The notes under the pieces were generated by a model, which was not told the origin of the DNA, made no database searches, and was given only the letters and a program-made list of their open reading frames with translations. Source: Erysipelotrichaceae bacterium (GTDB taxonomy: Bacteria > Bacillota_I > Bacilli_A > Erysipelotrichales > Erysipelotrichaceae). Taken from it: a DNA stretch of 64,000 bases. Made by a program: the position numbers and the translations under genes. Shown in pieces: positions 14,248 through 58,748 of the stretch. Where the stretch lies: positions 1 to 64,000 of the forward strand of contig SVBJ01000002.1 of assembly GCA_015058955.1 (NCBI GenBank), written 5' to 3'. Every line of letters starts with the position of its first letter. The stretch's first letter is position 1.

Positions 14248-15235
14248 AACCGAACTGCAGAGCTTACAGCCAGTTGTTTATCAGACCCTGCACAATGCTC
14301 TTAAAAATGATTCTCTGTCGCATTGTTATTTGTTTGTGGGTCCGACCGGCACATCCAAGTTTGAAACAGCGGTCTTGCTGGCGCAGAGTCTGATCTGCCC
14401 GGAAACCGAAGATGGCTGGGCCTGTCAGCAGTGCATCCAGTGCATCCGCATTGAAGAGAACAACTACGCTGACTACATTCTGATTGATGGGTCAAAGGAG
14501 TCCATCAAGGGTGAGCGGATCATGAATCTGCAGTATCAGTTTGCTCAGACTGCTCTGGAAAAAGCCGGCAGGAAGATCTTTATCATCAACAGCTGTGAAA
14601 ACATGACCTTAAAGGCTGCCAACAGTCTGCTAAAGTTCATTGAAGAACCTTCTGCCAATCTGACCGGGATATTCATTACCACTTCCCTGGACAATGTTCT
14701 TCCAACTATTGCCTCCAGGTGTCAGGTCATCAACTTCAAACCTCTCAGCAAGGAAGTCTATTTCAGAAAAGCCAGGGACAGCGGACTTGATGAACTGAAT
14801 GCGCATATAGTATCACAGCTGGTCAATTCTCCGGCTGAAATCGTCTCTCTGAAGGAGAACGAAACCTATCAGAGCGCACTGTATCACTTCATTGAATTCA
14901 TGTTTGAATATCTCAAGAGTCCGGAAAACGGTGTCATTTATCTTCAGGAATACGGGTTCAGGGAAGCTATCAAGGAGAACGAACGCCGTAAGGACCGCGA
15001 TACTTTTGGTTATTTTCTTGACATAGCTGACATTTTCGTTAATGATTACTTCAGCGGACATCAACCAGATGATGAAAGCTGGTCTTCTCTGCTGAAAACC
15101 GCAGCAGATAAAAACTTTGATTTTACTTCTTTCCTTCAGACCATCTCCGAAACCAGAGATGCTCTGAACAGATCCGCCAATATCGGTCTGCTTACAGACC
15201 AGATGCTATATAAAATGATGGGAGGTACTTCATGA
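14240..15235 (+). CDS. holB: DNA polymerase III delta' subunit
   Basis: HolB is a clamp-loader subunit of the replisome. The 331-residue protein has a RecA-like AAA+ domain with a degenerate Walker A (GPTGTSKF), a four-Cys zinc module (CPE...CxxCxxC, near residues 53-71), and the SRC motif in ASRCQVI. It overlaps tmk by 8 bp. In Bacillus the gene for the c-di-AMP receptor DarA and yaaR lie between tmk and holB. Here both are absent and darA is at 29525. Confidence 0.93.
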
Positions 15236-16113
15236 GCGAACAGGAAATCATAAATGAACAGGACTTTAAGTACGTCGTATCTATCAAATTCTCCAGCTCA
15301 AAGAAGGCATATAACTTCGGGACCAATGACGAGAGCCTGAAGTATGGTGATAAAGTAGTTGTTGAAACCGTCAGAGGAATTGAACTTGGAGAAATGATCA
15401 GTGACCTGCGTCCGTTCTCTACCTATTCTTCCAACCTGACTCTCAAGCCGATAACCAGAAAGGCAACCAGCCGTGACATTGATAACGACGCCAGAAACAA
15501 ACGGGATACCGTTGAGGCAACCAAGCAGTGTCAGAAATGCATTGACGAACTGGGACTGGAAATGTATCTGATATCCACGGAGTATACCCTGGACAGATCA
15601 AAGATCATTTTCTCCTATGTCGCTGATGACAGAGTTGACTTCCGTGAACTGTTAAAGAAGCTGGCTGCCATTTTCAAGTGCCGCATTGAACTGCGTCAGA
15701 TCGGGGCCAGAGACAAGGCCAAGATCATCGGCGGTCTGGGAACCTGCGGCATGGAAACCTGCTGCTCCCGTTTCCTGGATGATTTTGATATCGTATCCAT
15801 CAACATGGCCAAGAATCAGCTGCTGGCACTTAATACTCAGAAACTTTCCGGTCAGTGCGGAAAGCTGATGTGCTGCCTGAAATACGAAGACGAAAACTAC
15901 AAGTGCATGCGTAAGGGTCTGCCGAAGCTGAACGCATCCGTGGAATACCAGGGGCAGAGATACCGCATTACCAGCATGAACCTGCTGAATCAGACCGTTC
16001 ACATTGCCAACCGTGAAAACGCCGTTGACATGACTCTGGCAGAGCTGAAGGCGCATCTGCATATTGAAGATGCACCAGACAACAGCGAGCGGGCTGAGGA
16101 AACTGAAGATTAA
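15232..16113 (+). CDS. ricT: RicT/YaaT PSP1-domain protein of the Y-complex
   Basis: A 293-residue protein with the PSP1 C-terminal domain. Its cysteines in GTCGMETCCSRF and GQCGKLMCCLKYE are the RicT signature for Fe-S cluster binding. In Bacillus, RicT with RicA and RicF steers RNase Y processing and affects development. RicA and RicF are not in this window. The gene overlaps holB by 4 bp, with GGGAGG before the start, keeping the conserved holB-ricT order. The acidic C-terminal tail is typical. Confidence 0.94.
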   Translation: MSEQEIINEQDFKYVVSIKFSSSKKAYNFGTNDESLKYGDKVVVETVRGIELGEMISDLRPFSTYSSNLTLKPITRKATSRDIDNDARNKRDTVEATKQCQKCIDELGLEMYLISTEYTLDRSKIIFSYVADDRVDFRELLKKLAAIFKCRIELRQIGARDKAKIIGGLGTCGMETCCSRFLDDFDIVSINMAKNQLLALNTQKLSGQCGKLMCCLKYEDENYKCMRKGLPKLNASVEYQGQRYRITSMNLLNQTVHIANRENAVDMTLAELKAHLHIEDAPDNSERAEETED

Positions 16114-16123
16114 TTACGACTTA

Positions 16124-16158
16124 AAGAAGCGCCGGTTTACATTACCGGCTTTCTTTCT
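16124..16158 (+). terminator. Terminator after ricT
   Basis: The stem GCCGGT/ACCGGC (extended by outer A-T pairs) is followed by TTTCTTTCTT, just after the ricT stop. Confidence 0.8.
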
Positions 16159-16189
16159 TATAATTACTTAAGCGAACAAGGAGATATTT

Positions 16190-17503
16190 ATGAAAGAAAA
16201 GATCAATGTATGTCTGATGAACGATTCCTTCCCTCCTCTGATCGATGGGGTAGCGAACACTGTTGTCAACTATGCTTCAATCATAGAAGAAAAATACGGG
16301 CACGCCATTGTTTCAACACCTGACTATCCTGGTGTCACGGATGATTATCCTTTTGAGGTAATGCGTTATCCAAGCATTAACACCACCAAACTGGTCGGTT
16401 ACCGTGCCGGCATGCCTCTGGACGTCAGTTATCTGGCTCGTTTAAGCAACAAGGACATAGATATTATTCACTCTCACTGTCCCATTGCCTCTACCATTCT
16501 GGCCAGAATTGTCAGAGACACCAACCACAAGCCGATCATAATGACTTATCACACCAAGTTTGACATTGAACTGAAAAAAGCCATCAATTTCCGTTTGATT
16601 CAGAACACAGCCATTTCAACTCTGATCAAAAACATCGAAGCTGTCGATGAAGTATGGGTTGTATCCAGAGGTGCCGGGGAAAACCTGAAGTCCATGGGAT
16701 ACAAAGGTGACTACATTGTCATGACAAACGGAGTTGACCTTCCTAAGGGAAAGGTAAGCCGTGACCGCATTAACCGGATAAGACAGGAATATCTTCTTCC
16801 GGAAAACTGTCCTGTCTTCCTGTTTGTCGGAAGAATGCAGTGGTATAAGGGCATTAAGATCATCATTGATGCCTTAAGAAATCTTTCCTCCAGAGGAATG
16901 GATTACCGCATGATGTTTGTAGGTGATGGAGCTGACAGAATCGACATTCAGGATTATGCCATTGAAAAAGGCATCTTTGAGAAATGTATCTTTACCGGTC
17001 CAATCAGAGACCGCGAGAGATTAAGAGACATTTATTCCAGCTGCGATCTGTTTCTGTTCCCGTCAACCTTTGATACCAACGGCATCGTAGTCAGAGAAGC
17101 TGCAGCGTCCGGACTGGGAAGCGTGCTGATCAAGGACAGCTGTGCTGCCGAAGATGTTACCGGTGATGAAAATGCCCTGTTAATCGAAGAAAACAGCGAA
17201 AGTATGACGGATTTACTGGTTAAGCTTGGAGACAATCTCTCCTACATGCACACCATCGGTGAAAACGCCATGAATCAGATCTACTGTTCCTGGGACGACA
17301 GTGTTGCCAGGGCTGTGGAAAGATACAGATATGTCATCGACAACGTCCAGTATCACAAACCGACGCTGTTTGATGAAAACAGTACGGTCCTCGATAACTT
17401 CTTCTCCCTGTGGGCAGATATTGTCAACACGATTGATAAGACCCGAAAGATCGGTGAAGATGTCAACAACCGGTTATATGACATGCTCGACAGATATCTG
17501 TAA
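16190..17503 (+). CDS. Glycosyltransferase, GT-B fold, family 4-like
   Basis: A 437-residue cytoplasmic or membrane-peripheral glycosyltransferase. The N-terminal acceptor domain starts INVCLMNDSFPPLIDGVANT. The C-terminal donor domain has FVGRMQWYKGI, GDGADR and the nucleotide-sugar EX7E region REAAASGLGSVLI. These features resemble GT4 enzymes that make glycolipids or capsule. The C-terminal about 60 residues form an extra helical tail. It has an AAGGAG site and follows the ricT terminator, so it is probably transcribed alone. Donor and acceptor are unknown. Confidence 0.88.
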   Translation: MKEKINVCLMNDSFPPLIDGVANTVVNYASIIEEKYGHAIVSTPDYPGVTDDYPFEVMRYPSINTTKLVGYRAGMPLDVSYLARLSNKDIDIIHSHCPIASTILARIVRDTNHKPIIMTYHTKFDIELKKAINFRLIQNTAISTLIKNIEAVDEVWVVSRGAGENLKSMGYKGDYIVMTNGVDLPKGKVSRDRINRIRQEYLLPENCPVFLFVGRMQWYKGIKIIIDALRNLSSRGMDYRMMFVGDGADRIDIQDYAIEKGIFEKCIFTGPIRDRERLRDIYSSCDLFLFPSTFDTNGIVVREAAASGLGSVLIKDSCAAEDVTGDENALLIEENSESMTDLLVKLGDNLSYMHTIGENAMNQIYCSWDDSVARAVERYRYVIDNVQYHKPTLFDENSTVLDNFFSLWADIVNTIDKTRKIGEDVNNRLYDMLDRYL

Positions 17504-17524
17504 AGCAGTTTGATGAAAGCACAC

Positions 17525-17549
17525 TAAAAGGCAGAATATCTGCCTTTTT
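17525..17549. terminator. Terminator between convergent glycosyltransferase and lrgB genes
   Basis: The stem AAAGGCAG/CTGCCTTT with a short loop is flanked by A and T runs, so it should work in both directions. Confidence 0.8.
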
Positions 17550-17556
17550 GTTTTTG

Positions 17557-18249
17557 TTAATACAGCCCCACAAACAGGCTGGCCAGTATGACTGTCAGTA
17601 TGCCGGAAACCACGATGGACAGTGAACTCATTGCTCCTTCGATCTCTCCTATTTCCATGGCCTTGGAAGTACCGATGGCATGTGATGCTGTTCCAATCGC
17701 GATTCCCTTGGCGATCCTGTTACGGATACCGAAGAGTTTAAGTATCGCTTCACATATGATATTACCAAATACTCCTGTAATGATTATCGCCGTAACCGTT
17801 ATGGCTACAAACCCTCCCATTTCTTCGGAAATACTCATTCCAATGGCGGTGGTAATGGATTTCGGCAGGAAAGTTATGAATTCCTCACGGGAAAATCCAA
17901 AGACCTTGCCCATCAGGAATATAGAACCCAGAGATGTCAGTACACCAGACAGGATGCCTGCCATTATTGCCGGAAAGTTCTTCTTCAGTTTTTCCAGCTG
18001 CATGTACAGCGGTACAGCCAGACATACCGTTGCCGGTGTCAGTAATACGCTGATATATCTTGCTCCCTGATTATAGGTCCCGTAATCAATTCTGAACAAT
18101 AACAGCACTGCTATGCATAATACGATCGCAATCAGTAATGGATTGACCAGACCGCCTTTGAACCTTTTCTTTATTCCCATGGCAAGTACATAGGTTGCCA
18201 GGGTCAGGAATAAGCCAAAGAAGGTGGAAGAACTGAGAATGTTATTCAT
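17557..18249 (-). CDS. lrgB: LrgB/CidB-family membrane protein
   Basis: A 230-residue polytopic membrane protein of the LrgB family. Conserved blocks are FLPKSITTAIGMSISEEMGG and IGTASHAIGTSKAMEIGE. LrgA/LrgB modulate murein hydrolase activity and autolysis and have been linked to pyruvate uptake in some Bacillota. The start overlaps the lrgA stop by 8 bp, giving a coupled pair. No LytSR-type two-component system is adjacent. Confidence 0.93.
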   Translation of the reverse strand: MNNILSSSTFFGLFLTLATYVLAMGIKKRFKGGLVNPLLIAIVLCIAVLLLFRIDYGTYNQGARYISVLLTPATVCLAVPLYMQLEKLKKNFPAIMAGILSGVLTSLGSIFLMGKVFGFSREEFITFLPKSITTAIGMSISEEMGGFVAITVTAIIITGVFGNIICEAILKLFGIRNRIAKGIAIGTASHAIGTSKAMEIGEIEGAMSSLSIVVSGILTVILASLFVGLY

Positions 18250-18601
18250 TTCCTTTTCCTCCTTTTCCTATTACTGCCTGTGTGACAAGCCCACTGACCG
18301 CCATAACTGCCAAAGTGGAAACCAGAGTAACTGTCATATAGCTTAACCAGTGTGCCTTAAGCACATCCCAGGAACTGATCAGACCAACAGCTGCCGGAAT
18401 GAACATGATTGGCATGATCTCAATGAGAAAAGACGAGGTTTCCCTGATATGTTCAACCTTGAGCAGTCCCGTATAAAGCAGGATAAACATTCCGACAATG
18501 CCGTAAATGCTGGCCGGTACCGGCAATGGCAGCAGTTCATGCAGCAGTTCCCCCAGCAGAGAAACGGAAATGATTATCAGTATCTGTTTCAGATATTTCA
18601 T
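18242..18601 (-). CDS. lrgA: LrgA/CidA holin-like protein
   Basis: A 119-residue membrane protein with four hydrophobic segments and the family motif LPLPVPASIYGIVGM. It works as the small partner of LrgB in control of cell lysis or metabolite export. It is the first gene of the lrgAB pair, with a GGGGTG site before ATG. Confidence 0.93.
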   Translation of the reverse strand: MKYLKQILIIISVSLLGELLHELLPLPVPASIYGIVGMFILLYTGLLKVEHIRETSSFLIEIMPIMFIPAAVGLISSWDVLKAHWLSYMTVTLVSTLAVMAVSGLVTQAVIGKGGKGNE

Positions 18602-18622
18602 GATAACACCCCAAAGCCGCTA

Positions 18623-19648
18623 TTAATATTTATTATGTACTTTTTCCGCAAAGCACATTACGTCTTTAATTTCAATTACTGTACCGTCATCCAGGATAGC
18701 CTTGCCGCTCATTCTGCCGAATACCTGATGCTGATCGGAAACGATGACCTTGAAATCAAGGTTCGCTGCTCTGTCCAATACCGGAACAAAGTCCATTTCA
18801 AATCGTCCGTCTGAGGAAGTAAACTTCCATGGGTCGGTATAGCCGCTTTCCGGAATGTGGAATACGATGTCATCAAGCTTATGAACCTTGCCGTCATAGA
18901 AAATCACGTTTTCTGAAGCAGCCTTGGTATTGCCGAAACCGTAGCCGATGTTAAAGCCAAAGGCATGTCCGTTAACATCAGCATTTCCTGATCCCCAGAA
19001 CCAGGTATTGTCATATGTCCATACACCTCTGCCCCAGTCTAAGGTACCGAAATCTGTTTCCGGTTTGAACTGGTAGATCACATCATCATACTGCATGTAG
19101 CCCGATGCACGCATGCAGTTGATTTTCTGATTGTAATAGAAAGCATGTTTCTTATCCCATGGTGTCGCAATTACCATTGAATCCATTGGCGGCTGATTCA
19201 GAATGATGTCGCAGTCAAAAGGTTTGTTGTTCCAGAAGTTTTCAAAATGACAGGTTATGTGTCTGGTATTTCCCTCAACCGCAAACCTCATCTGCAGTCT
19301 CTTGTCCTTATACTCCGTTATTCCCGAAGAGGAGTCTGAAGGCAGTTTAAGCTTGCCCATAGGGAACGGATTGAGAACAGTCTCGGTATGTTCCCATGGC
19401 TTGTCGTCGAAATAAAGCAGTGATACTGACTGTAAGCCGATATAGCCGTCATCGGAAATCGTAAAGGCTCCGGCAAACTTGTCAGTCAGTACAATGTAAT
19501 AATCCCATTCCTTGATGCGCCACTTTGGGGCCTTTATCATGCTGCGGTCATATTTCTGTACCAGAGAACGTGACCATCCCGGTTCTCTCAGTTCTCCTTC
19601 AGCATTTAAAAGGAGATCTCGCTTGGTTACTTCGTAGTTTCTGCTCAT
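18623..19648 (-). CDS. DUF2804-family protein
   Basis: A 341-residue soluble protein matching the DUF2804 family. It opens with NAEGELREPGWSRSLVQKYDR, has repeated beta-rich segments with many Trp residues, and contains the DWGRGVW and WFWGSGNAD blocks. The family fold suggests lipid or carbohydrate binding, and the biochemical role is not established. It has a strong GGAGG site. It ends about 20 bp before lrgA on the same strand, so read-through into lrgAB is possible. Confidence 0.88.
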   Translation of the reverse strand: MSRNYEVTKRDLLLNAEGELREPGWSRSLVQKYDRSMIKAPKWRIKEWDYYIVLTDKFAGAFTISDDGYIGLQSVSLLYFDDKPWEHTETVLNPFPMGKLKLPSDSSSGITEYKDKRLQMRFAVEGNTRHITCHFENFWNNKPFDCDIILNQPPMDSMVIATPWDKKHAFYYNQKINCMRASGYMQYDDVIYQFKPETDFGTLDWGRGVWTYDNTWFWGSGNADVNGHAFGFNIGYGFGNTKAASENVIFYDGKVHKLDDIVFHIPESGYTDPWKFTSSDGRFEMDFVPVLDRAANLDFKVIVSDQHQVFGRMSGKAILDDGTVIEIKDVMCFAEKVHNKY

Positions 19649-19754
19649 GTTGATTCCTCCATTGAAGATGCATTATTGGTTTAAGATACTTGCTGTAATT
19701 TTATTTTATCACTAATTGTTATATAATTTTCATAAGTTTAGTTGGGGTTAATAC

Positions 19755-20831
19755 ATGTTTACTAGTCTGAAAGTCAATATCATGGTAACACTGCTGACAG
19801 TTGTCATGGTTTTCATGCTGCCGTGGCTTGATCATTTCATCTGTCGAAAACTGGGCGTGAGTCTTTCTGACGGCATCAGCACCAATCTGGATGCTGACAG
19901 GCTGCTGCACATCCGCAAGATACTGCTGATCATCATGTTCTGTGTATATCTGCGGGCAGTAAGCTATGTTACCTTCTTTTCCCGTTCCGCTGCTGATGAC
20001 TATCAACTGCACATAGCCCTGTTCCAGGATCTGGGTGAATCCATCAGAATAGACCTCGGATTTTTCGGCTTCATTAAAACTCTTTTTACCAATGGCTTTT
20101 CCCGGGCCATGGAACACATAAAGATCCGGAATCCGGAAAGTCTTTCTCAGATCTACATGAACATCTGCATGTTTATTCCCATGGGCTATCTGCTGCCGTA
20201 TGTTTTTGACTGGTTCCGCCGCAATGTCACCAGACGTGTCATTCCCGTCTGTTTTCTGGCCTCCCTTCTGATCGAAAACATTCAGCTTATCAGCAAGCAC
20301 GGCTTCTATGACCTGGACGATCTGATCACCAATACCCTGGGCGGTATCATCGGACGGGCTCTTTATGTAGCTGTTGCCTATGTGCTTACTCATCCTAAAT
20401 GGAGAAGTGATCTCAGAGAATACCGTAAATGGCGTCTTAATGCCAGATCCCGTGCTCTTTATCCATTCATGCATAAGATCCATGTTGTCAGAACCACTCT
20501 GCTGGGAACCGACAGCAATGCCATCTTTGACTTCTATGTTACCAAACTTGGTTTCCGTTTACTGAAAACCGTAAGGGAAGAAAAGACAAAGGATATCAGC
20601 TATCTGCTGGAATTTGGAAAAACACAGATCGAAATCAGATGCATTCATGACCTTACAATCATACCTCTGCAGACTGTTACCATTGCCTGCAACAATTCCG
20701 AAAGACTAAAGGAAAGACTGGAACAGTACAATATCTCTACCGGCAGTTATCGGTCTGATACTTATACCGGATTAAGAACCTTCAGCTTCCATGGACCGGA
20801 TGGAGTCTGCATTACCATCATTGAAGAATAA
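19755..20831 (+). CDS. VanZ-domain membrane protein fused to a C-terminal VOC/glyoxalase-like domain
   Basis: A 358-residue protein. Residues 1-212 carry about five hydrophobic segments and the VanZ signature (GFYDLDDLITNTLGG, about 183-197). After a basic linker, residues about 240-358 look like one vicinal-oxygen-chelate module. His243 lies in KIHVVRT, Glu in TQIEIRC, the GLRTFSFHGPDG turn follows, and Glu357 is near the end. VanZ proteins are linked to glycopeptide tolerance and surface assembly. VOC modules bind metals or sequester drugs. The fusion suggests a membrane-tethered binder, but this is inference. The ribosome binding site is weak (GGGG). Confidence 0.82.
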   Translation: MFTSLKVNIMVTLLTVVMVFMLPWLDHFICRKLGVSLSDGISTNLDADRLLHIRKILLIIMFCVYLRAVSYVTFFSRSAADDYQLHIALFQDLGESIRIDLGFFGFIKTLFTNGFSRAMEHIKIRNPESLSQIYMNICMFIPMGYLLPYVFDWFRRNVTRRVIPVCFLASLLIENIQLISKHGFYDLDDLITNTLGGIIGRALYVAVAYVLTHPKWRSDLREYRKWRLNARSRALYPFMHKIHVVRTTLLGTDSNAIFDFYVTKLGFRLLKTVREEKTKDISYLLEFGKTQIEIRCIHDLTIIPLQTVTIACNNSERLKERLEQYNISTGSYRSDTYTGLRTFSFHGPDGVCITIIEE

Positions 20832-53452: not shown

Positions 53453-55087
53453 TCAGTTATTTACGGCATTCTTTTCAATCAGAGTAACCTTCAGATTGAC
53501 TCTTTCTCTGCCTCTTAACACTGTCAGAGTTACGGTATCTCCTGGCTTAAATTTGTTCAAGGCGCTCTTCATGTCCTCATATGAAGCAACCTTACTGTCT
53601 TCAATTGCGACAATCAGGTCTTCGGCCTGTAACCCTGCCGCTATGGCACTTTCGCTCATTACCTCACTGACGTAAACACCGTAGTCGTTGACTTTGTAAT
53701 ACATCATGTAACGCTGTGTTTCAATGCTGACACACTTGATGCCGATGCTTGGTCTGCCTGTTACATACCCATGGGTGATCAGATCCCGTACAACAGTCCT
53801 GACGATTTTGGTCGGAATCGCAAATCCGATGCCTTCAACACTGTCACCTGAACTCTTGGCGTTGACGATAGCGATCAGTTCTCCGGATGTGTTGAACAGG
53901 CCTCCGCCTGAGTTACCCGGGCTGATTGCCGTATTGGTCTGCAATAAGGTCATCTTCTGGCCTTCAATTGTTATTTCACGGCTCAGGGCACTGATGATAC
54001 CGGTGGTAACCGTTCCGCCTAAGGTTCCTAACGGATTTCCGATGGCAATGACGCCCTCGCCTACCTTAAGCTTTTCAGAATCACCCAGAACAGCCCGCTG
54101 CAGGCCTTTGGCATCGATTTTGATTACTGCCAGGTCGGTTTCCTCGTCAGTCGCAACCAGTGTTGCACTGTATTCCTTACCGTCATGAAGTTTTACGTTA
54201 ATGCTTCTGGCATTTTCTATGACGTGGTTATTGGTAATGATATATCCGTCAGAAGTATATATTACACCGCTTCCGGCTCCTCCTGTTACATATTCACCAT
54301 AGAAAGCACTGTAGGATACGCTTTCCGTATACACCTCAACTACTGTGTTTTCAATGCCTGCAACAATGTCAGTAAGATCACCGCTGGAAACATTTGCGTT
54401 CCGAGCTGTTTCCACACCTTCATACACGACCACTGTTTCAGTTGGCTTCTTATTATTCAGGACTGTTACCAGATAACTGCCGCCAACGCTTAAGCCTATT
54501 GTCAGTAAAGCCAGCATGGCCAACAGGAAATTGCTGAGTGATTTCTTACGGTTTACCTGCACCGCCAGATCACTTACCTGCTGCTGCCGTCTCCGGTAAT
54601 CTCTTCTCATTTTTTCCAGTTCCTTCTGCAGATCCCGTTCTTCCTTTGGTGTGTTGACCGTTATTGCCGGTTTTCTGATTTCCGGCTGTACCGGTTCAGT
54701 TTTAACTTCCGGCTTTACCGTTTCTGCTGCAGTCCGCTTTTCCTCATGCTTTTCAGTTGCTGTTTTTTCTTCGGCGTTAACTGTTTCAACCGGTTCTGCT
54801 TCTTCACTGCTCCGGCCCAGCTGAGGTTCAACGGTTTCTCTGACCTCTTCAGTTACTTCATTTGCCTGGGTTACTGCTTCACCGGCAGCTTCTGTTGTTT
54901 CTGCTGCTGTTTCCCGAATAACCGCTTCAGTGTTTTCCTTAACTTCTTCAACTGCTTTTTTTATTTCATCAGTTTCAGTTAATACCGCTTCTTCAGCGGT
55001 TTCTTCTGTTTTTTTCTGAATTGCTGCAGACGGTTTTTCATCTTCCACAGTTTCTTCATTAATTTCATTTAATTTTTCATCTGTCAT
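53453..55087 (-). CDS. htrA: HtrA/DegP-family serine protease with a long acidic cytoplasmic N-terminus
   Basis: A 544-residue surface quality-control protease. Residues 1-185 form an unusual Glu-rich, low-complexity cytoplasmic region. Residues about 186-210 are one membrane span. The trypsin-like domain has His288 (TNNHVIEN), Asp318 (ETDLAVI) and Ser393 (SPGNSGGG). A single C-terminal PDZ domain (about 440-540) follows. It degrades or folds exported proteins outside the membrane. AGGAGG precedes the start. It sits next to two secreted cell-wall proteins. Confidence 0.95.
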   Translation of the reverse strand: MTDEKLNEINEETVEDEKPSAAIQKKTEETAEEAVLTETDEIKKAVEEVKENTEAVIRETAAETTEAAGEAVTQANEVTEEVRETVEPQLGRSSEEAEPVETVNAEEKTATEKHEEKRTAAETVKPEVKTEPVQPEIRKPAITVNTPKEERDLQKELEKMRRDYRRRQQQVSDLAVQVNRKKSLSNFLLAMLALLTIGLSVGGSYLVTVLNNKKPTETVVVYEGVETARNANVSSGDLTDIVAGIENTVVEVYTESVSYSAFYGEYVTGGAGSGVIYTSDGYIITNNHVIENARSINVKLHDGKEYSATLVATDEETDLAVIKIDAKGLQRAVLGDSEKLKVGEGVIAIGNPLGTLGGTVTTGIISALSREITIEGQKMTLLQTNTAISPGNSGGGLFNTSGELIAIVNAKSSGDSVEGIGFAIPTKIVRTVVRDLITHGYVTGRPSIGIKCVSIETQRYMMYYKVNDYGVYVSEVMSESAIAAGLQAEDLIVAIEDSKVASYEDMKSALNKFKPGDTVTLTVLRGRERVNLKVTLIEKNAVNN

Positions 55088-55170: not shown

Positions 55171-56478
55171 TTAGTTTTTCTTCCTGTTTATCATGACGAT
55201 GGCCAGGGCGATCATTACTAATCCAGCCCGTCCGCCGGTGATGTACACATAAACCGGCAGATCGTTTCTGTTTTCCTTTTTACCGGGATGAACATATCTC
55301 TGTACCGTATTATCTCTGGTATCAAGTTTATACAGCTGAGTGTCCCCCTTTTCATCGGTAAGACATACTATTTCAAATTCCTGCTGACTGTTATCTCTGA
55401 AACTCCATCCGTCAACTTCTCTGTCAGCTATTCTGACTTTGGTCCTGATGAAGTCTTCTTCCATGTAAGGATAACCACTGTAATTGGCGTTTTCTGCCAC
55501 ATAATACATGTTGTTATATGTCAGAGGTCTGAACAGCTCTGTTACCTTATTCTTATTCTTATCATATAGATAAAAGTCTTTTTCGCCTTTTTCATTTACC
55601 AGGTAGAGCAGACGGAAATAGCTTCCGGTAAATACTGTAATCGTATCTCCTCCCGTTTTGGTTTCTTTCTTTTTGAATCTTTCATATTCAACCTTATCCA
55701 GATTCTTAACAACCCCAAGTCTTTGTCCGTTAAGCTCATAGAAAACCGTCGGTTCCTCTTCCACGTAAGCTCTTATTACATATGTTCTGGTTGATGAATC
55801 TTCAGCTACACAGGTGATCATTACATCATTCCAGCCTTCTGAAAGAGAGGTATCGTAATCCTGAACGGTGGCTTTCTCGCTGTTTGTATATACAGTCAGA
55901 TCCAGCTTTCCGGTCTTTTCAGGCAGATATACCTTATATTTCGTTATTTCCGGTGAAAAATCAGGTTCAAGTTTGCCGTTGGTGATACTGATGTTTTTTA
56001 TGGTTGCGTCATCTGACGGTTTTTCATCCGGCTTATCTGTCTTTTCCACGATATTTACGGTCGTTGTCAGGGAATTGCCGTAACCTGATATTTCCGAACC
56101 TTCAATGCTGACAAACTTGATTACTGACAGATACACGGTCGTAGATCCCTTGGCCAGTGTCCTGAAGACAAAAGTTTTGGTTTCCTTATCGCTGGATGCA
56201 GCATCAACCAGCAGTCTGCCGTTGCTTCTGTTATAGTCATTTTCCGGACATTCAATCAGTTCCAGATAGGTACTGCTGTAAGACAGGCTCATGTCAGCCA
56301 TGCTGCCACCCTTGCATTCGATGTCTATGGTCAGAGTAAAAGTCTCCCCGATTTCAACTTCTGACCGGGAAGCTGTCATTTTTATTGTTCCCTGTGCTGC
56401 CAGTACCTGCTGTCTGCAGGTTATGATGCACATTAATGCTGTAACGGCAGCCAGCCATTTTCTTAATGTCTTTTTCAT
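55171..56478 (-). CDS. Membrane-anchored protein with cohesin-like and cadherin-like beta-sandwich domains
   Basis: A 435-residue protein with a signal peptide (cleavage near residue 28, QVLAAQ). Residues about 30-145 look like a cohesin domain (ASRSEVEIGETFTLTIDI, then SLSYSSTYLELIE and AKGSTTVYL). Residues 160-240 are a cadherin-like beta-sandwich (SPEITKYKVYLPEKTGKLDL, TRTYVIRAYVE). A unique domain (245-405) and a C-terminal helix (411-431) ending RKKN follow, so it stays on the membrane. I start it at ATG 56478 with AGGAG 8 nt upstream. The gene before it carries a dockerin, so the two could bind each other. Confidence 0.75.
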   Translation of the reverse strand: MKKTLRKWLAAVTALMCIITCRQQVLAAQGTIKMTASRSEVEIGETFTLTIDIECKGGSMADMSLSYSSTYLELIECPENDYNRSNGRLLVDAASSDKETKTFVFRTLAKGSTTVYLSVIKFVSIEGSEISGYGNSLTTTVNIVEKTDKPDEKPSDDATIKNISITNGKLEPDFSPEITKYKVYLPEKTGKLDLTVYTNSEKATVQDYDTSLSEGWNDVMITCVAEDSSTRTYVIRAYVEEEPTVFYELNGQRLGVVKNLDKVEYERFKKKETKTGGDTITVFTGSYFRLLYLVNEKGEKDFYLYDKNKNKVTELFRPLTYNNMYYVAENANYSGYPYMEEDFIRTKVRIADREVDGWSFRDNSQQEFEIVCLTDEKGDTQLYKLDTRDNTVQRYVHPGKKENRNDLPVYVYITGGRAGLVMIALAIVMINRKKN

Positions 56479-56480
56479 CT

Positions 56481-58307
56481 TCAATGCTCCTGCTGATCTA
56501 TCTCTTCTGTTCCCAACAGATGTCTCTTGATCATTATATAGGATAATATGCTTACTTCTTCCTCACCTTGCGGTAAGGCTGCCTTAAGATACGGACCTTC
56601 AAGTTCGCTCAGGTTAAGAATGTCCTTCTTAACTTCCAGAAGGTCAGCCGCATCAATCTTTCCATCGCCGTTAACATCTCCTTTAATGATAACGGTATAA
56701 TCTTCCACATTATCTCCGTTTCTGATTTCCACGGTATAGCCTGTTGCGATCAGAGAATTACCTTCTACCGTTTCCCCGCTGGCGTTTCTGATCGTAACCT
56801 GGGTTCCGTTTTCCATGGAAGAAGCCAGATTACTTATTACTCCGGCTGTTGTTCCGGTTTCAAAACCGGTCAGAGTTTCATTGTCATTTATCAGACAGAG
56901 ATCTGTAATGATGTCACCGCTGCTGACATCAGCTGCCGGATCATCATATTCACTGATTTCCGGTTCTTCTACCGGATCTTCAGGTATTATTACCGGTGGA
57001 TTATGCCCCGGTAAAACCGTGTATTCCGGCATGTTTTCATATACCGGTATCGAGAAAGTCAGATCCCGGGTCAGATTGCCGGTATCGTAATATGTAAAGA
57101 ACATTGATTCGCTCTTGATGTATACACCTCTGATGTTGGTCATGTACTGATGACTGTAAGTCCACACCGGAGTAACATTGAACTTCATCAGATACATCGT
57201 ATCCTGACCGTCAGAAATGTATCCTTCAGCTATCCATTCCGCCCCGCCGTTAATGGCTCTGGATGGGGAGTTCCACGGTCTGTTATAGGATGTTTCCGTA
57301 CCGTTGACACCACCATTGGCATAAATAAGACCAAGTTTCCAGTTTTCAGCATCACTTACCGCTCCGATATTGAAATAGTTATAAAGACCTGAGTAGGTTC
57401 TCCCATTATAACTGAAAGCCGCACCGCTGGTAGCTGCGGAACCATTGGTTCCCTGTTCCAGTCGGGCCAGTACTGCCAGGTACAGACCGCTTATTCGGTT
57501 ATTGCGTCCTCCTTCAAAGAACAGATCAGCATATCTGCGGTTATCTACCGGAGCGTTTCCGCTCATGAATGTGCCGTCCAGTACTTTCTGAATTACTTCA
57601 GCCGTTTCTGATTCCTTGTATCCCAGATTCAGAAACATGAAGATGTTCATCTTGTTGATGAAGTTACGAGGGTCCATGTAGTAAGCAACTGTCTCACTGT
57701 TGGCACAGAACCAGTTATTTCCATCCCATGGAATATACTGTCCGGTAGATGAATCATAGGCACCAGGATCCTTGCTGCGAAGTGAGGTATCACTGCCGTC
57801 AACCAGACTGAATCCCAGTCTGGATTCCTGGGAAACTGCTTCATTCCAGTCAAGATTGGTATGATAAGCTACAAAGGTCCAGTTTGGATACAGATTATGC
57901 AGTCTTCTGATGGACCGCTTATAGGTATCAGGGAATCCCTGATCATTCATGTATGCTTCAAAGGCTGCGTCCTTAGGCTTATTTACTATCAGCTGGAAGT
58001 ACTCATCCCTTACCCAGGTCCTGTATTCCTTGTCTCTGTTGAATATGACGTTATACCACAGTTCACCTTCATTATTGACACTGCTTCCGATGATTGAGAG
58101 AACTTCACCGTCATTGTAGTACTGATATGATCCGTTTATGGTCAGGTGTTCATAATTAACTCCCGGACCCAATCTGACTCTTATTCCTTCACCCAGAACA
58201 AAGCCCTCTGCCGCTTCTGTTTCTTCAGCTTTGATGCATGCAGAGTCTGATACAACCATGAATATTGATAAAAGTACTATAAGTACTGTTTTAAGTGCCT
58301 TTTTCAA
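56481..58307 (-). CDS. Secreted N-acetylglucosaminidase with N-terminal SH3-like and C-terminal dockerin-like domain
   Basis: A 608-residue murein hydrolase-like protein. A signal peptide (cleavage near 25-28) is followed by an SH3-type region (VRLGPGVNYEHL, to about 115), a glucosaminidase-type catalytic domain (about 130-430), and a low-complexity acidic linker. The dockerin-like module (543-599) has a good first Ca loop, GDVNGDGKIDAADLLEV. The second loop is degenerate (LPQGEEEVSILSYIMIKRHLLG). The start is taken as TTG 58307, 8 nt after GGGAG. The upstream ATG at 58337 lies before the likely transcription start. Confidence 0.82.
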   Translation of the reverse strand: MKKALKTVLIVLLSIFMVVSDSACIKAEETEAAEGFVLGEGIRVRLGPGVNYEHLTINGSYQYYNDGEVLSIIGSSVNNEGELWYNVIFNRDKEYRTWVRDEYFQLIVNKPKDAAFEAYMNDQGFPDTYKRSIRRLHNLYPNWTFVAYHTNLDWNEAVSQESRLGFSLVDGSDTSLRSKDPGAYDSSTGQYIPWDGNNWFCANSETVAYYMDPRNFINKMNIFMFLNLGYKESETAEVIQKVLDGTFMSGNAPVDNRRYADLFFEGGRNNRISGLYLAVLARLEQGTNGSAATSGAAFSYNGRTYSGLYNYFNIGAVSDAENWKLGLIYANGGVNGTETSYNRPWNSPSRAINGGAEWIAEGYISDGQDTMYLMKFNVTPVWTYSHQYMTNIRGVYIKSESMFFTYYDTGNLTRDLTFSIPVYENMPEYTVLPGHNPPVIIPEDPVEEPEISEYDDPAADVSSGDIITDLCLINDNETLTGFETGTTAGVISNLASSMENGTQVTIRNASGETVEGNSLIATGYTVEIRNGDNVEDYTVIIKGDVNGDGKIDAADLLEVKKDILNLSELEGPYLKAALPQGEEEVSILSYIMIKRHLLGTEEIDQQEH

Positions 58308-58338
58308 TAGTTTTTCTCCCGGATAGTTTTCCACCATA

Positions 58339-58344
58339 ATTATA
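58339..58344 (-). promoter_or_regulatory. -10 element of the glucosaminidase gene
   Basis: TATAAT on the - strand at 58339-58344 would start transcription near 58332, five bases past the ATG at 58337. This supports TTG 58307 with GGGAG at 58316-58320 as the real start. I see no good -35 box, so this promoter is tentative. Confidence 0.5.
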
Positions 58345-58748
58345 TTACTTAATATATAAAAAATAAAATTTTATGTGGATATCATTTTAACACAGCAGAT
58401 GTTCTTTTGAAAGTTTCCACATGTGGATAATTGTGTTTTCCACATGTGTTAATTCTGTGGATAAATCAAAAAAAGCCGCTTATTTACTTGTTTTTTTTAA
58501 TGTTTGTCACTTGTTGAAAACCTGTTTTTTCGTGTTACTTTTCAACTATATCCACCTTGAAAGTTTTCCACATTATTTATCCACAGTTTTATCCACACAA
58601 AAAGTTGTGGATAATGGTGGAAAACTCAATAATAGTGCATAAATACGCGGTATTTTTATACATCATAAAATGTGGACAATTTTTTTCATTATTTACCCCC
58701 TATTTTTTTGGGTTTATTATATATATGCACGTTGAGGGTTGATAAATT
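58345..58748. other. Chromosomal replication origin (oriC) with DnaA-box cluster
   Basis: This 400-bp AT-rich gap directly upstream of dnaA holds five perfect DnaA boxes (TTATCCACA or its complement): 58432-58440, 58456-58464 and 58606-58614 in complement orientation, and 58577-58585 and 58589-58597 in forward orientation. Several near-matches lie between them. The stretch from about 58620 to 58740 is very AT-rich and is the likely unwinding element. An extra box at 60181-60189 between dnaA and dnaN suggests a bipartite origin. No gene is visible in the gap. Confidence 0.92.

Follow-up and report, generated by a model that had tools for sequence, protein, structure and literature searches.

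Genes and features of the locus

The window, the whole 64,000-nucleotide stretch of DNA that was analysed, carries in a row on its minus strand, beyond the divergently read dnaA, the genes of a secreted enzyme, of a membrane anchor protein and of HtrA. The following features are referred to below:

53453-55087, minus strand: HtrA-type membrane serine protease, whose gene order is conserved in the dnaA-linked subgroup alone
55171-56478, minus strand: membrane anchor protein, 435 aa, with signal peptide, cohesin-like, cadherin-like and C-terminal domains and membrane helix
55177-55254, minus strand: predicted C-terminal membrane helix of the anchor, residues 409-434, with short basic tail
55285-55758, minus strand: juxtamembrane beta domain of residues 241-398, conserved across family members, without Pfam assignment
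55759-56022, minus strand: cadherin-like beta sandwich (PF12733), residues ~153-240, by a profile above cut-off
56041-56397, minus strand: putative divergent cohesin domain, residues 28-146, by model, homologues and covariation
56481-58337, minus strand: secreted glucosaminidase of 618 aa ending in a type I dockerin, by ORF and profile matches
56508-56684, minus strand: type I dockerin, residues 552-610, by PF00404 and profile match
56541-56576, minus strand: degenerate loop of dockerin repeat 2, LPQGEEEVSILS, with the subsequent helix retained
56643-56678, minus strand: intact Ca loop 1 of the dockerin, DVNGDGKIDAAD
56688-56915, minus strand: module ahead of the dockerin, residues ~475-550, conserved with the dockerin in many homologues
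57039-57722, minus strand: GH73/SagB-like glucosaminidase catalytic region, residues ~206-433, by sequence alignment
57456-57458, minus strand: E294, aligned with the corresponding Glu in AtlA and SagB

The stop codon of the enzyme gene is separated by 2 bp from the ATG of the anchor gene, ahead of which stands AGGAG. The enzyme gene had been placed at 56481-58307 by the original prediction: its end was correct, whereas its start lies at the ATG at 58337, position 58307 being an in-frame leucine-type start. On the other side of the pair from HtrA lie dnaA and a DnaA-box cluster. The DNA between the enzyme gene and dnaA (58338-58748) contains five DnaA boxes that match exactly and four with one mismatch (TTATCCACA), and from its sequence this intergenic segment is likely oriC. 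The pair had been described as lying beside the origin, and the dnaA gene and the DnaA boxes adjoining the enzyme gene agree with this.

The middle part of the enzyme matched the SagB model in a profile search (E 2e-17), and the window enzyme matched the solved AtlA glucosaminidase and SagB at E 2e-10 and E 7e-9, respectively. A catalytic Glu, as in GH73-like enzymes, is present: E294 occupies the position of the AtlA and SagB Glu. These matches bear out the earlier assignment as a glucosaminidase. With the SagB equivalog NF052642 the enzyme scored 63 bits, below the curated cut-off of 425, so we class it by profile score as a related glucosaminidase, SagB itself being excluded. In two sets of homologous enzymes the catalytic Glu was kept by 34 of 35 and by 18 of 23 members; enzymes without it include GH25 and metallo-beta-lactamase types. 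Membrane prediction found an N-terminal signal or hydrophobic segment and none further along the enzyme chain. The structure model of the full enzyme (9-sequence alignment) was poor (pLDDT 56) and was not used.

The presence of a dockerin at the enzyme C-terminus was confirmed by an HMM search: PF00404 matched residues 552-574 with 30.5 bits (cut-off 22.9). A profile of the window group, compared with solved type I dockerins, covered both repeats (residues 549-609, E 1e-7). The further claim that the window dockerin has one intact and one degenerate loop was likewise correct. Loop 1, which together with the helix gives the F-hand arrangement of a type I dockerin, was intact in 59 of 59 members, the window included. 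Loop 2 was intact in 45 of the 59 and degenerate in the window dockerin and in 13 further members, its decay extending over the entire dnaA-linked group and several others.

Repeats 1 and 2 inside one protein usually share 67% identity, as against 39% between proteins, and the paired repeats of most members resemble those of dual-binding dockerins. The window dockerin and its nearest relatives do not: identity between repeats is only 14-18% in the window dockerin and two relatives, and in the window dockerin repeats 1 and 2 differ at positions 10/11. The two intact, near-identical repeats of a canonical dual-binding dockerin are thus absent from the window dockerin. Since only the first Ca loop is left and the repeat symmetry is lost, this dockerin is predicted to bind one Ca and to dock in a single orientation. 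A single binding mode is known for the non-cellulosomal dockerins of C. thermocellum, which bring single enzymes to the cell surface, and a cohesin-dockerin pair of C. perfringens likewise binds in one mode (PMC5429695).

The N-terminal domain of the anchor

Two parts of the anchor were found as anticipated, the cadherin-like sandwich (PF12733 passes at residues 161-238) and the C-terminal membrane helix. LPXTG is absent from the anchor C-terminus.

The original prediction also gave the anchor a cohesin-like domain, and named the lack of a cohesin hit as a result that would speak against it. A PF00963 profile search of the window anchor itself gave no match. A divergent member missing a profile match can still belong to the cohesin family, and the PF00963 cut-off was passed over residues 26-139 by at least three homologues that occupy the equivalent place in the gene pair (L158, 26.0 bits; L159, 24.9 bits; L161, 31.0 bits). 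The same-genus orthologue in G006 matched PF00963 at E 3.5e-4, below the cut-off.

An AlphaFold model of the anchor, built on 11 sequences, had a mean pLDDT of 83. In the structural comparison of residues 27-146 the cohesins of C. perfringens ranked top among the chains compared: 2vo8 (Z 12.5, rmsd 2.6 over 117 residues), 2w1n (Z 12.5) and 2jh2 (Z 12.3), and many further cohesins matched the model of this N-domain at Z 10-11. Ig-like folds that are not cohesins came near, CLIPPER with Z 11.8 and complement with Z 10.9, so the fold alone is indecisive. The PDB sequence search with the N-domain alone returned meaningless matches only, and the whole-anchor profile reached several cohesins only at E 0.1-0.3, values that we took as a hint and not as evidence. 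Fib-H_N, BatD and DUF11 were tried as assignments for the anchor and dropped; their matches were weak, below cut-off and inconsistent across members.

With the cohesin fold as the best match of the model and homologues above the PF00963 cut-off, we conclude from these comparisons that the N-domain represents a divergent cohesin. The predicted cohesin-like domain is thus supported by fold and by homologues, the window protein itself giving no direct PF00963 match.

Recurrence and coevolution of the pair

Anchor relatives were collected by whole-genome searches among relatives of the window at family, order and class level, and adjacency was counted over the full-length anchors with a visible upstream side in class Bacilli. 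In 61 loci a dockerin-ended ORF lay directly upstream on the same strand, at a distance of -17 to +30 bp (median 10). Conservation in related genomes, which had been suggested as a check, is answered by these 61 adjacent loci. A membrane helix was predicted in 59 of the 61 anchors of the paired loci; the paired enzymes had no membrane segment past the N-terminal signal, bar one borderline case.

Three full-length anchors had no dockerin ORF directly upstream: L142, the second copy in L148, and L155. In L148 (477-5852) two anchors are arranged around one dockerin enzyme, the second anchor copy sitting just upstream of the dockerin gene. In L155 (1528-5466) the anchor is kept and the adjoining SagB-like enzyme stops before the dockerin, by loss or by an assembly fault. 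Nor is a dockerin gene adjacent in L085 and L094, the two known homologues without the N-domain.

The pair recurs in many gut bacteria. It was present in the family of the window (f1), in another family of the same order (f2) and in one further family of the class (f12); carriers with a name include Amedibacillus dolichus DSM 3991 and, with two paralogous pairs (L071 and L072), Longibaculum muris DSM 29487. It lies beside dnaA in the genus of the window and in two Erysipelotrichia MAGs, and elsewhere beside metA-like, ftsA-ftsZ-like and mazF-like genes (names given by reading the ORFs), so the two genes remain joined while their surroundings vary. The cargo enzymes are SagB-like (26 of 35 in one set), PF01832 glucosaminidases, GH25 enzymes and enzymes of metallo-beta-lactamase fold, with peptidoglycan hydrolases in the majority. 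The dockerin is constant on these varying enzymes (23/23 and 34/35).

HtrA had been proposed to police the complex. As a functional third member it would process or clear the complex, and htrA does follow the anchor gene in the genus of the window and in the two Erysipelotrichia MAGs, but HtrA was not seen beside the pair in f2 and f12. The support is gene order, and as the adjacency is limited to the dnaA-linked subgroup the proposed role is unproven; we rate it as very unlikely.

Some units of related build were seen. At L192 (1047-5583) a PF01832 glucosaminidase with dockerin precedes a protein of 648 aa that has a membrane end and three cadherin-like stretches; this variant of the pair was left outside the count of 61. 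L184 (1340-6226) and L185 (1133-6067) encode a protein of ~1325 aa, with dockerin, NPCBM and F5/8-type domains in the case of L184, and behind it a protein of ~300 aa that has a membrane end. PF00963 matched the second gene of these units in the genome search; the L184 protein alone was unmatched. They appear to be another two-gene unit, with other cargo on the same principle as the window pair. In Longibaculum muris (L071:6921-7712) and in G057 (L067:659-1396), where the cargo is an enzyme of metallo-beta-lactamase fold, a CAAX-protease-like membrane gene (PF02517, the SpdC family) lies ~2 kb or less from the pair.

Sequence distances were compared over 59 enzyme-anchor pairs. Dockerin distance correlated with that of the N-domain (partial r 0.47 for all pairs; 0 of 500 permutations as high), the values being 0.01 for the cadherin domain and 0.23 for the C-terminal domain. 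In f12 alone the dockerin to N-domain value was 0.66 with the catalytic region of the enzyme also controlled, and 0.06 for that region itself. The dockerin and the N-domain are close in the DNA, and shared recombination could raise a distance correlation.

Covariation between dockerin and anchor columns was determined as mutual information with background correction. The N-domain, which holds 29% of the columns, received 59 of the top 100 couplings. Dockerin positions 10/11/17/18 have been named as recognition residues (PMC4081043). Making up 13% of the dockerin columns, they accounted for 31 of the 59 couplings to the N-domain vs 3 of the 41 to other domains (Fisher 1e-6); these canonical positions were tested on an alignment already viewed ungrouped, so that p-values are not fully blind and separate analysis of two halves of the data is more informative. 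In the f12 half the recognition positions took part in 39 of 68 N-domain couplings and in 0 of 32 elsewhere; in the f1+f2 half the effect was weaker (13 of 46 vs 6 of 54, p 0.04). DNA linkage would not single out recognition positions in this way. The N-domain partner columns (~55-68, 95-98 and 108) lie on or beside model strands 59-66 and 98-107, and since the covariation rests on ~48 effective sequences, it is exploratory where individual residues are concerned.

These data bear on a different reading of the anchor, by which the N-domain is some other Ig-like adhesion or wall-binding domain, enzyme and anchor are two wall proteins that make no contact, and the dockerin binds elsewhere, for example to the other cohesins of the genome. 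The missing direct PF00963 match of the window N-domain, the weak BatD, DUF11 and Big domain matches of some members and the presence of other cohesin genes in the genome would fit such an arrangement. It is hard to reconcile with homologues that exceed the cohesin cut-off, with recognition positions that covary with the N-domain and hardly with the remainder of the anchor, and with the joint absence of N-domain and dockerin neighbour; we therefore regard it as quite improbable.

A probable membrane tether and its relation to known systems

The explanation that we consider highly probable is a cohesin-dockerin tether, one enzyme to one anchor, that keeps a peptidoglycan hydrolase at the membrane. 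The linked two-gene unit would supply a secreted N-acetylglucosaminidase of SagB/AtlA type together with its own membrane anchor. The C-terminal type I dockerin of the enzyme would dock on the N-terminal cohesin of the anchor, the cadherin-like domain and the further beta domain would serve as a stalk, and the C-terminal helix would fix the assembly in the cytoplasmic membrane. Held in this way, the hydrolase would act on peptidoglycan near the membrane rather than diffusing away. A membrane tether of the dockerin-ended hydrolase was the core of the original prediction, and it is favoured by the fold, the homologues over the cohesin cut-off, the 61 adjacencies and the covariation of recognition positions. 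Physical binding, its Ca dependence, the site at which the enzyme acts and a part in wall growth or glycan release are inferred.

The pairing of enzyme and anchor need not be exclusive. The whole window genome gave two dockerin and three cohesin profile hits, and with other cohesins and one other dockerin present, either partner could perhaps bind elsewhere. Two very large subtilisin-like surface proteins are encoded on the minus strand of contig C29 of this genome (L092:3437-12100 and 14352-20000), the first with dockerin-like and cohesin-like stretches and the second with a cohesin-like stretch; it is possible that they self-associate or are partners for other modules. On contig C7 (L093:3012-4016, minus strand) there is a second single-cohesin membrane protein (334 aa, PF00963 E 7.5e-4), located beside a glycerol-kinase-like gene and without a dockerin neighbour. 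G008 has this protein too (L188), and G033 has one resembling it (L189).

The pair could also be the remnant or the seed of a cellulosome-like complex, the anchor cohesin taking several dockerin enzymes in turn, and some relatives (e.g. L069, L070 and L082) do have extra dockerin ORFs away from anchors. Each anchor has a single cohesin, however, the relatives have at most three dockerin hits per genome, and no multi-cohesin scaffoldin was seen adjoining the pair. In the window genome the cellulosomal combination of a multi-cohesin scaffoldin with many dockerin enzymes was not found. We judge this origin unlikely and prefer the one-to-one tether.

Cohesin-dockerin binding has mainly been described for the extracellular breakdown of plant fibre, starch and host glycans. 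In the window and its relatives, whose genomes encode no more than three dockerins each, it was apparently recruited into the machinery of their own wall. Non-cellulosomal cohesins and dockerins are reportedly widespread according to the 2009 survey of Peer et al., in which some of the members may figure. In the open-access literature we found no description of a dedicated two-gene unit of cohesin anchor and wall hydrolase; non-cellulosomal cohesin-dockerin pairing being known, we therefore call the window pair a new form of it, one made of membrane anchor and wall hydrolase. The unit is compact and conserved, and its naturally diversified pairs are a possible source of orthogonal binding modules.

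The closest folds are those of C. perfringens GH84C/GH33 (2w1n, 2jh2, 2vo8), which share with the window pair a one-to-one, non-cellulosomal assembly on secreted enzymes. In C. perfringens the cohesin is on another secreted enzyme, whereas the window pair has it on a membrane protein dedicated to anchoring, with a peptidoglycan hydrolase as cargo. With C. thermocellum OlpC and R. flavefaciens ScaE, a dockerin protein is brought to the cell by a surface protein that bears a single cohesin (PMC5429695, PMC2930009). Both OlpC (4dh2) and ScaE are single-cohesin surface anchors like the window protein; ScaE, in contrast, is sortase-anchored (LPXTG) and holds plant-fibre enzymes, while the window anchor has a membrane helix and forms a two-gene unit with a wall hydrolase. 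Dockerins on peptidoglycan-hydrolase families have a precedent in the GH73 and GH25 enzymes of Ruminococcus albus (PMC4081043, Table 3). That species, however, is a fibre degrader with 58-90 dockerin proteins and at most one cohesin protein, and no adjoining membrane cohesin partner is described for it (PMC4081043).

In function the nearest likeness is to SagB-SpdC of S. aureus, where SpdC holds and steers SagB, giving glycan strands of the right length and release of nascent peptidoglycan (PMC12272431). As SagB is, the related window glucosaminidase would be held by a membrane partner; this is a likeness of function and not of membership. SpdC belongs to the CAAX protease family and is integral to the membrane, whereas the window enzyme would be held by a predicted cohesin-dockerin contact on a single-pass anchor, a new answer to the problem of keeping a dangerous wall-cutting enzyme in place. 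Tentatively, and with rather less than even confidence, we suggest that the module is a widespread and standard means of placing a peptidoglycan glucosaminidase at the membrane in Erysipelotrichales-like and other small-genome Bacilli, where it would do the job of SagB-SpdC with a private specificity for each pair.
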